A stretch of 41,508 nt of DNA. Origin: an uncultured Lachnospiraceae bacterium (GTDB taxonomy: Bacteria > Bacillota > Clostridia > Lachnospirales > Lachnospiraceae). Every line of letters starts with the position of its first letter. Position 1 is the first letter of the stretch. Position numbers and translations under genes: made by a program. Positions 28,271 to 33,195 of this stretch are shown piece by piece. The notes below the pieces were generated by a model, which saw only the letters and a program-made list of their open reading frames with translations, searched no databases and was not told where the DNA came from. The DNA is taken from contig CAMVNR010000011.1 of NCBI GenBank assembly GCA_947168905.1, forward strand, positions 1 through 41,508, in the 5' to 3' direction.

Positions 28271-29506
28271 TTACTGCAGAAAATCGCGGATTCTTTTCGA
28301 CCGGACGGGGTTGCGGAGCTTTCTTAATGCCTTCGCCTCGATCTGGCGGATTCTCTCACGCGTCACATTGAACTCCTTGCCGACCTCCTCGAGTGTCCGC
28401 GGATGCCCGTCCAGAAGGCCGAAACGCAGGATGATTACCTGGCGTTCCCTGTCCTTCAGGTCCCCGAGAAGGGTATCAATCTCCTCCCGGAGCATGACGT
28501 TCTCCACATTCACCTCGGGCGTAACCGTATTGGTATCCGCCACAAAGTCCCCGAGGTTCGAATCGTCCTCTTCGCCGATCGGCGTTTCCAGAGACGCGGG
28601 TTCTCTCGCGATCTGCATGATCTCCATCACCTTGGATTCGGAAAGGTCCAGCGCCTTGGCAAGCTCTGTGACAGAAGGCTCGTAGCCGAGCTCCAGGGTA
28701 AGCTTTCTCTGCATTTTGGACATCTTGTTGATCGTTTCCACCATATGCACGGGCACACGGATCGTACGCGCCTGATCTGCAAGCGCACGCGTGACAGACT
28801 GCCGGATCCACCAGGTAGCATAGGTGGAGAGCTTGTAGCCCTTCGTGTAATCAAACTTCTCGACGCCCTTGATGAGTCCGAGATTTCCCTCCTGGACAAG
28901 GTCCAGGAAGCTCATTCCCCGGCCGGTATAACGTTTCGCAATGCTCACGACCAGACGAAGGTTCGCCTCGATCAGCCGCTGCTTCGCAGCTTCGTCTCCA
29001 TCGGCTTTTTTCTTGGCAAGCTCGATTTCCTCGTCCGCGGAAAGAAGCGGAACCATACCGCTTTCCTTCAGATACATGCGGACGGGATCTCCCGTGCCTA
29101 CGCCCTCCAGAAGGTCCAGATTCGTCAGGTTGATGTCCTCGGTCTCGTCCATGTCGCCGTCCGAGAAATCATCATCGAGAATATCCACATCCAGGAGCAG
29201 ATCGTCATTCATGATCCGGAGCACATCGATTTTCTTCCGCTCCAGATGAGAGATAATGCTTTCAATCTGATCCGGTGAAAGCGTAATGCCCTTGAAGAAG
29301 TTATTGATATCGTCAACTTCCAGAATGGAATTATGCTGGCGTCCGTATTCCACGAGCTTTTCAAGCATCTGCGGAGTCACCGAATTCTTGTCCTGGCCGG
29401 ACCGCAGCGCTTCTTCTTCTCTTTTCTCGTCGGCTTCATCCGTATATTCGTCTGAGATAAGTTCCTCTTCCTGCAGCTCGTTATTTTCTACGTTGTTTTT
29501 TCTCAT
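28271..29506 (-). CDS. rpoD: Primary sigma factor RpoD (sigma-A)
   Basis: The 411-aa housekeeping sigma factor has all regions: acidic 1.1 (about 45-110), 1.2 near [12 protein letters not shown], region 2 with [19 protein letters not shown] and [16 protein letters not shown] (-10 recognition), region 3, and region 4 with the helix-turn-helix [26 protein letters not shown] precedes the ATG. It follows leuS by 22 bp. In many Firmicutes rpoD follows dnaG, which is not in this window. Confidence 0.98.
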
Positions 29507-29528: not shown

Positions 29529-31928
29529 TTATCTGACTACGATATTCACAATTCTTCCCGGAACGTAAATCTCCTTCACGATCGAGCCGGTCAGCCGGCT
29601 GCCGAGGGCTTCTTTCGCAGCAGCGATTGCGGTATCCTTATCGGCGCCGCGCGCAATTTTCACACTGCCCCTCACGCGCCCGTTCACCTGAATGCCGATC
29701 TCGATCATGTCTTCGACCGTCTTCTCCTCATCGTGCTCCGGCCAGTCCGCCTGATACAGCCTTCCTCCGAAGCCCTGCGTCTCCCAGATTTCTTCGGTCA
29801 TGTGCGGCGCCACCGGATTCAGGAGCTGAAGGAGGGTCTTCAGTTCGCCCTTTGTCACGGAGCCCGCCCGGTAGAAGTCATTAACAAGAGACATCATTGC
29901 AGCGATCGCGGTGTTGAACTTCAGATTTTCAAAATCCGAGCTGACCTTTTTGATCGTCTGATGCACTCTCGTCTCGAGCGCTTTGGAGTACCCTTCGTCT
30001 TCTGTCAGCATATCCTGAAGCTTCCAGACGCGCTCAAGGAATTTTCTGCATCCCCGGACTCCTTCCTGGGACCAGGCGGCGGAAAGCTCGAATGCTCCGA
30101 TGAACATTTCGTAGGTTCTGAGCGTATCCGCGCCGAACTCACTCACGATATCATCCGGATTTACAACATTTCCGCGGGACTTTGACATCTTTTCGCCGTT
30201 CTCGCCGAGAATCATTCCGTGAGAGGTACGTTTCCTGTAAGGCTCCTTGACCGGAACGGCTCCCTGATCGTAGAGGAAGCGGTTCCAGAATCTCGAATAC
30301 AGAAGGTGCAGCGTTGTGTGCTCCATGCCTCCGTTATACCAGTCGACGGGCATCCAGTACTTCAGCGCCTCCGGGCGTGCGATTCCGGTCTCACAGTGCG
30401 GATCACAGTAGCGGAGGAAATACCAGGAAGAGCCTGCCCACTGGGGCATTGTATCCGTTTCCCTCTTTGCCGGGCCGCCGCAGCACGGGCATGTGACATT
30501 GACCCAGTCGGTCATCTTCGCAATCGGCGATTCCCCGTTGTCGGTCGGCTCATAAGACTCCACATCCGGCAGGATTAAAGGAAGTTCGGATTCGTCAAGC
30601 GGTACAAAGCCGCATTTTTCACAGTGAATCACCGGGATCGGCTCGCCCCAGTAGCGCTGGCGGGAGAAGACCCAGTCGCGGAGCTTGTAATTTGTCTTCG
30701 GCGTACCCACGCCATGCTCCTCCATCCACTCTGTAATCTTCTTTTTCGCCTCTTCGACTTCCAGGCCGTTCAGGAATCCCGAGTTCACCATCGTTCCGGA
30801 CTGTGTATTGGTATAAGCCGCTTCTTCGACGTTTCCGCCGGAAACGACCTCGATAATGGGCAGATTGAATTTTTTCGCGAAGTCCCAGTCTCTCTCGTCA
30901 TGGGCCGGAACCGCCATGATCGCGCCGGTTCCGTAGGTCATCAGCACATAGTCGGAAATCCAGATCGGAATTTCTTCGTTTGTCACGGGGTTGACGGCGC
31001 GAAGGCCCTTGATCTCGACGCCGGTCTTGTCCTTGACAAGCTCTGTACGTTCGAATTCGCTCTTTTTCGCGGCTTCCTCGCGGTACGCAAGGAGTTCGTC
31101 GTAGTTTTCGATATCATCCTTGAAAAGGTCGATATAAGGATGTTCCGGCGAAATGACCATATAGGTTGCGCCGAACATCGTATCGGGACGCGTCGTATAA
31201 ATGCGGAGCTTTTCCTTCTTTCCAACGAGCTGGAATTCAGCCTCGGCACCCTGGGATTTTCCGATCCAGTTAATCTGGGAAGTCTTGATTTTCTCCATAT
31301 AATCGACTTCCGACAGGCCTTCGATCAGCTTCTCGGCATATTCCGTAATCTTCAGCATCCACTGGGACTTCACGCGCCGGATCACTTCGGTGCCGCATCT
31401 CTCGCAGCAGCCGTTCACCACTTCCTCGTTCGCGAGGCCGCACTTGCAGGACGGACACCAGTTGATCGGCATTTCCGCCTTATATGCAAGGCCCGCCTTG
31501 AAGAGCTTCAGGAAGATCCACTGCGTCCAGTGATAGTAGGACGGATCGGTCGTATTGACTTCGCGGTCCCAGTCGAAGGAATAGCCCAGCGACTGAAGCT
31601 GCTGCTTGAAGCGTCTGACATTATTCTCGGTGACGATCTTCGGATGAATATGGTTTTTGATCGCATAGTTCTCCGTCGGAAGGCCGAATGCGTCCCAGCC
31701 CATCGGATAAAGCACATTGTAGTGCTGCATCCGGCGTTTTCTTGCAACAATATCCAGTGCGGTATACGGACGCGGGTGTCCGACATGCAGGCCCTGCCCC
31801 GAAGGATACGGGAACTCTACGAGTGCATAGAATTTCGGCAGCGTATAGTCTTCCTTCGCTGCGAATGCTTTCTCGTCTTCCCAGATTTTCTGCCACTTAG
31901 GTTCAATTTTCTTCGGTTCGTACCGCAT
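29529..31928 (-). CDS. leuS: Leucyl-tRNA synthetase
   Basis: The 799-aa class I enzyme charges tRNA-Leu. It has the HxGH motif HVGHPRP, zinc-site cysteines in NWCPSCKCG and CCERCG, the CP1 editing domain ([20 protein letters not shown]) and KMSKSRGN. I start it at ATG 31928 because AAGGAG lies 8 nt upstream; the GTG at 31937 overlaps that site. The 5' region holds a separate small RNA rather than a T-box leader. Confidence 0.98.
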
Positions 31929-31984
31929 GTTTTTCACTCCTTACTGTTTTTTGGCATTGACTTCATTTTATGGAAAAAGCCACA

Positions 31985-32016
31985 GAAAACAAACAAAACC
32001 GTAAACACAGGTTTTG
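31985..32016 (-). terminator. Terminator of the noncoding RNA
   Basis: CAAAACC and GGTTTTG form a perfect 7-bp stem with a 9-nt loop, followed by TTTGTTTTC. It lies 56 bp before the leuS start. Confidence 0.8.
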
Positions 32017-32227
32017 TCTGCCGCCTATGGATTTTCTGCATATAAAATCCCGGGAGTGCCGTTTCCCCGCAAGTTGACTCCCAGCATATCGCCAGGTGGG
32101 TTTCCGCATCATGACTTCTGCCTTCCACTGATAAAAGATGAGGCCTGACATCCGCCATGAGATATAGGAATCCCGTATTATGTCATGTAGGTTCAAAATA
32201 GCGGGAATATCGTACACCCCAGGACAG
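31985..32227 (-). ncRNA. Structured noncoding RNA, class uncertain (raiA-motif-like candidate)
   Basis: A promoter of TTGATA-17-TATAAT and an intrinsic terminator delimit a transcript of about 210 nt plus terminator with no coding frame. On the minus strand I can pair: a closing stem CTGTC (32223-32227) with GGCAG (32018-32022); GATAT+TCCCG with CGGGA+ATATC (32202-32211 with 32161-32175, a 5-nt bulge); TCATGGC with GTCATGA (32154-32160 with 32109-32115), enclosing GCCT/AGGC; CTGGGAGT with ACTCCCGG (32077-32084 with 32050-32057); GGATTTT with AAAATCC (32044-32050 with 32029-32035, sharing one base with the previous stem). The result is multibranched. Size, architecture and clostridial host suit the raiA motif, but I cannot confirm a family. 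No T-box core is present. Confidence 0.75.
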
Positions 32228-32231
32228 CTGT

Positions 32232-32260
32232 ATTATAACAAAAATCTGACGGATTATCAA
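32232..32260 (-). promoter_or_regulatory. Promoter of the noncoding RNA
   Basis: TTGATA (32255-32260), exactly 17 bp, TATAAT (32232-32237). The -10 is a perfect match. The -35 overlaps the rluD stop codon. It is one of the strongest promoters in the window. Confidence 0.82.
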
Positions 32261-33195
32261 TGACTTCTGAGAGAATTCAGTATTTTTTCAAAATATTCCG
32301 GATCCGGGACCGAAAATTCCATATACCTGCCGTCTTTCGGATGCACAAATCCGAGAAGATATGCGTGCAGACACTGTCCCTGCGATGCATCCTTTGTCTT
32401 CCGTCCCCCGTAGACCTCGTCTCCGAGAAGCGGATGTCCAAGATGCGCCATATGTACGCGGATCTGATGCGTTCTCCCGGTTTCCAGACGGCATTCAATG
32501 AGCGTACAGCTCCCGAAGCGCTCGAGCACGCGGCAATGCGTTACGGCGTTCTTCCCGTTCTGCTCGTCAACCGCCATTTTCTTCCGGTTCTTTTTGTCTC
32601 TGCCGATCGGAAGATCTACCGTTAAGCTGTCTTCCTTCAGGTTTCCCATGACGATTGCCCGGTAGCGGCGGTTTACGGAATGCTCCTTCAGCTGCTCCGA
32701 GATCTTAAGATGCGCCTCATCGTTTTTGCAGGCAATCACAATTCCGGTCGTATCCCGGTCGATTCTGTGCACAATTCCCGGGCGAAGCACCCCGTTGATT
32801 CCGGACAGATCGCTGCAGTGATACAGAAGCGCATTGACAAGCGTCCCGGCAGTATGTCCCGGGGCTGGGTGGACAACCATGCCCTTCGGCTTGTTCACCA
32901 GAATCACGTCCTCGTCCTCATAGACAATGTCCAGCGGAATATTCTCCGGAGAGATTTCAAGGCGAACCGGCTCCGGAAAACGGATACGGATTTCGTCATC
33001 CTCCTTCAAAAGGACGGATGGGCGCACCGTCTTCTCGTTCACCAGGACAGCACCGTCCTTAATCAGGCGCTGAAAAAAGGTCCGGCTCTTCTCGGGAAAG
33101 GCCTCGGAAAGATAGATATCCAGCCGAAAGTCCTGGTCTTCGGGTCCGGCAATCAGGACCTTACTGTCTTCATTTTTGTCCGAATATCCTGTCAT
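32257..33195 (-). CDS. rluD: RluA/RluD family pseudouridine synthase
   Basis: The 312-aa enzyme makes pseudouridine in 23S rRNA. An S4 RNA-binding domain (about 18-75) precedes the catalytic domain with the aspartate motif HRIDRDTTGIV (near 140) and the conserved GRTHQIRVHMAHLGHPLLGD. The exact target is inferred from the RluD-like layout. It starts three bases after the lspA stop and has a weak site. Its stop codon lies inside the promoter of the downstream RNA. Confidence 0.93.
   Translation of the reverse strand: MTGYSDKNEDSKVLIAGPEDQDFRLDIYLSEAFPEKSRTFFQRLIKDGAVLVNEKTVRPSVLLKEDDEIRIRFPEPVRLEISPENIPLDIVYEDEDVILVNKPKGMVVHPAPGHTAGTLVNALLYHCSDLSGINGVLRPGIVHRIDRDTTGIVIACKNDEAHLKISEQLKEHSVNRRYRAIVMGNLKEDSLTVDLPIGRDKKNRKKMAVDEQNGKNAVTHCRVLERFGSCTLIECRLETGRTHQIRVHMAHLGHPLLGDEVYGGRKTKDASQGQCLHAYLLGFVHPKDGRYMEFSVPDPEYFEKILNSLRSH

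Follow-up and report, generated by a model that had tools for sequence, protein, structure and literature searches.

A 6S RNA gene (ssrS) between rluD and leuS in an uncultured Lachnospiraceae bacterium

The noncoding stretch between an RluD-family gene and leuS on the minus strand encodes a structured RNA, which is almost certainly the 6S RNA gene (ssrS) of this genome and presumably acts as 6S RNA. The window, i.e. the whole stretch of 41,508 nucleotides that was analysed, was scanned with all 4227 Rfam families, and RF00013 (6S RNA) was the single match above the gathering score. This match was located at 32043-32228 on the minus strand, with 69.3 bits vs a gathering score of 46.4 (E = 8.4e-12); it comprised 186 nt and covered the 6S model end to end (positions 1-187 of 187). 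The initial annotation had considered a possible new RNA class and had also listed 6S RNA among the candidates for an Rfam covariance scan. This standard scan resolved the RNA as a housekeeping 6S RNA, i.e. an ordinary gene of an already known class and not a new one. The features of the locus, in the direction of transcription, were as follows:

32257-33195, minus strand: RluA-family (RluD-like) pseudouridine synthase, upstream gene (TIGR00005, 327 bits)
32232-32260, minus strand: promoter of the sigma-70/sigma-A type, TTGATA-17-TATAAT, its -10 element preceded by TG (from sequence; conserved in relatives)
32043-32228, minus strand: 6S RNA, ssrS (full-length RF00013 match, covariation, sole 6S copy found)
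32174-32210 (approximate), minus strand: 5' strand of the central region with the UUUUGA.CCUAC block, presumed pRNA template (conserved columns, homology to Bacillus subtilis 6S-1)
32079-32100 (approximate), minus strand: 3' central-bubble hairpin (helices 9-10, 5+1 pairs, 97-99.5% of cells paired)
31966-32030, minus strand: hairpin resembling a terminator (31980-32030), with a T tract after it (folding energy)
29529-31937, minus strand: leucine--tRNA ligase (leuS), downstream gene (TIGR00396, 1004 bits)
28271-29506, minus strand: rpoD/sigA-type primary sigma factor, next after leuS (TIGR02393, 372 bits)

Fold, covariation and occurrence of the 6S RNA

The RNA showed the 6S layout, i.e. a rod: helix 1 forms the closing stem, helices 4-8 make up the apical arm, and the central bubble carries a side hairpin on its 3' side (helices 9-10). 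Five helices in a multibranched arrangement had been proposed beforehand; a structured noncoding RNA was thereby correctly recognized, but the layout is better described as a rod that has a central bubble and a single side hairpin. Compensating changes in relatives, which the initial annotation had suggested as a check, were readily found. In an alignment of 38 family sequences, which was built from 6S-model matches and so favours sequences fitting the model, 20 of the 43 pairs of the consensus fold had changed on both sides, vs a mean of 11.5 in shuffled alignments. In the same 38 sequences 95.9% of cells were paired (87.3 shuffled), double-change cells numbered 157 (46.8 shuffled) and the covariation score was 0.350 (0.174 shuffled). 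None of 500 shuffles reached any of the five covariation measures, and pairing dropped to about 50% when the 3' partners were slid by one column. The shared 6S fold is strongly supported by this covariation. The folding energy of the RNA body alone was only mildly unusual (z about -1.7); the Rfam match and the covariation were decisive for the identity of the RNA, and not the folding energy.

The UUUUGA.CCUAC block on the 5' side of the bubble was nearly invariant in the aligned family sequences and is presumed to be the pRNA template region, with a putative start site. Together with the full-length model match, the covarying closing stem and apical arm, the conserved central block, the 3' central-bubble hairpin, the size of about 186 nt and a sigma-70 type promoter of its own are all shared with 6S/SsrS RNA (RF00013); nothing in the RNA itself differs, only its genomic place in the order rluD-6S-leuS-rpoD. 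Judged from the 186 nt match and the conserved promoter, the predicted transcript has the length of a 6S RNA encoded as its own gene (about 180-200 nt). The rod, the central bubble and the 3' central-bubble hairpin, the latter already predicted in the free RNA, are likewise features of B. subtilis 6S-1, and, as in 6S-1, the 5' side of the bubble is presumed to template pRNA synthesis here (PMC8876501).

One 6S match was obtained in the whole genome and no second copy was found in it. This differs from B. subtilis, which has two 6S RNAs, 6S-1 and 6S-2. Among 100 sampled genomes of the family, 94 contained a 6S RNA (88 above the curated cut-off), almost always as a single copy. Within the genus it was present in 12 of 15 genomes, and two of the three members without a match were only 54-59% complete. 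G024 was the sole genome of the 100 sampled in the family with two 6S matches over the threshold, at L015 (C37:31301-31479) and at C55:91379-91557.

Promoter and 3' end

The promoter at 32260-32232 agreed with the consensus in 11 of 12 positions, its -10 element ended 3 nt upstream of the 6S match, and it overlapped the 3' end of the rluD-like gene, whose stop is at 32257. In a promoter scan one such site per region was expected by chance; added support came from its conservation in relatives, as an equivalent promoter with the -10 element ending 2-5 nt before the 6S match was present in 10 of the 12 genus members with 6S RNA. The presence and conservation of TTGATA-17-TATAAT, the Rfam match and the covariation bear out the earlier proposal that a structured RNA is encoded here independently, under a promoter of its own. 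At the other end, the hairpin at 31980-32030 was strong (-24.5 kcal/mol, z = -6.3) and was followed by CTTTTTCC, i.e. an interrupted T tract; a simple scan for terminators did not report it. It is plausibly an intrinsic terminator. The description of a clean terminator was right as to the hairpin but overstated as to the T tract.

Gene neighbourhood and alternative readings

In all 12 genus loci rluD was located upstream and leuS downstream of the 6S RNA. Coordinate comparison placed a primary-type sigma factor gene (rpoD/sigA) after leuS in nine genus genomes, this one included; of the remaining three loci, one was cut by the contig end and two lay on contigs ending inside leuS. None of 28 6S loci from other genera had leuS or rluD beside the 6S RNA (flanks up to 1.5 kb), and no 6S RNA was found in the neighbourhoods of rluD in 13 named genomes of clostridia, most of them Lachnospiraceae. 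Since these 13 rluD neighbourhoods lacked 6S RNA, the placement between rluD and leuS is not a general one, and the order rluD-6S-leuS-rpoD seems to be particular to the genus. That the genus keeps its 6S RNA next to leuS and the gene of the primary sigma factor is the mildly useful result that remains beyond the identification. In lactic acid bacteria the 6S gene neighbourhood is reported to be a family-level trait, and co-transcription with the next gene to be likely in some species; the rarA context described for 6S-1 and lactic acid bacteria differs from the neighbours found here (PMC8414754).

Two LeuS types were observed at the same position 3' of the 6S RNA in the genus. The type of the window was about 70-92% identical in G111, G106, G109 and a fragment of G107, while the others were only about 47-49% identical. 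It looks as if leuS had been replaced in place by a distant version within the genus.

As the RNA immediately precedes leuS and is encoded on its strand, its position would also suit a cis-acting leuS leader (a T-box or another attenuator), in which case the region would be the leuS 5' UTR and the hairpin at 31980-32030 a regulated terminator. Several genus relatives had no evident terminator 3' of the 6S RNA, and their leuS started about 30-60 nt past the 6S end; because of this, readthrough from 6S into leuS may occur in them, which is in keeping with a leader. However, a permissive Rfam scan (E <= 1) of 31900-32400 yielded no T-box, other riboswitch, raiA, SRP or other bacterial family, as the initial annotation had anticipated for the T-box; the RNA matches 6S over its full length, and other sampled family genomes carry their 6S RNA away from leuS and rluD. 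A leuS leader is therefore very unlikely. SRP RNA was rejected, as the Rfam scans gave no match. MicroRNA and snoRNA matches obtained at the terminator hairpin and the promoter were taken as artefacts, lying far under the gathering scores and belonging to eukaryotic or viral families.

The raiA motif RNA (RF03072), the earlier best guess, resembles the RNA in length class (its model has 209 positions) and in its occurrence in Clostridia, to which the host belongs. The region had no sequence-structure match to it, none was found in the genome by a search run without a positive control, and the region fits 6S over the full length; the covariance-model result refutes the raiA motif, and we give this reading practically no weight. 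That the RNA represents a new class of structured RNA is extremely improbable, given a full-length Rfam match well above the curated cut-off and the presence of 6S RNA in nearly all of the related genomes sampled.

Presumed mode of action and the primary sigma factor gene

Because of the RF00013 homology, the covarying fold and the conserved locus, the 6S mechanism was assigned to this RNA, so that polymerase binding, pRNA synthesis and a growth-phase role are inferred by homology. RNA polymerase would transcribe the gene from the promoter at 32260-32232, starting near 32225-32228, and the primary transcript would end at the hairpin and T tract, at about 31966-31990. Once mature, the RNA (about 185 nt) would fold into the rod of closing stem, central bubble with a small 3' hairpin, and apical arm. 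Its central bubble would mimic melted promoter DNA, so that the RNA would occupy the sigma-70/sigma-A holoenzyme and transcription would be damped as growth slows. Once nucleotides are available again, the 5' side of the bubble would serve the polymerase as template for a short pRNA, and the 6S RNA would be released. In Escherichia coli and B. subtilis, 6S RNA binds the housekeeping holoenzyme by mimicking an open promoter, and pRNA synthesis releases it (PMC8876501). The 6S RNA of Clostridium acetobutylicum is strongly expressed and was seen on a Northern blot (PMC3879012).

The rpoD/sigA gene at 28271-29506 was the only primary-type sigma factor gene of the genome over the family cut-off (TIGR02393). 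The cluster 6S-leuS-rpoD is co-directional in the genus, with 6S at its head. Since 6S heads this cluster and some species have no evident terminator after it, a cis link might exist between transcription of 6S and expression of rpoD/sigA, the gene of the sigma factor in the holoenzyme inhibited by 6S; this is an improbable reading, and the regulatory meaning of the gene order is hypothetical.

The rpoD/sigA gene sits 2.5 kb from the 6S RNA. Its TIGR02393 score was about 372 bits, while most other family genomes had about 400-418 bits, often with a second gene near 375. In another genus of the family (L003:1501-3179, G073 contig C39), the 6S RNA immediately preceded a second RpoD-like gene with a lower score (301 bits), and the higher-scoring rpoD of G073 was located about 6 kb from the 6S RNA. 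An rpoD gene was also observed within about 3-20 kb of the 6S RNA in G020, G033, G046, G049 and G070.
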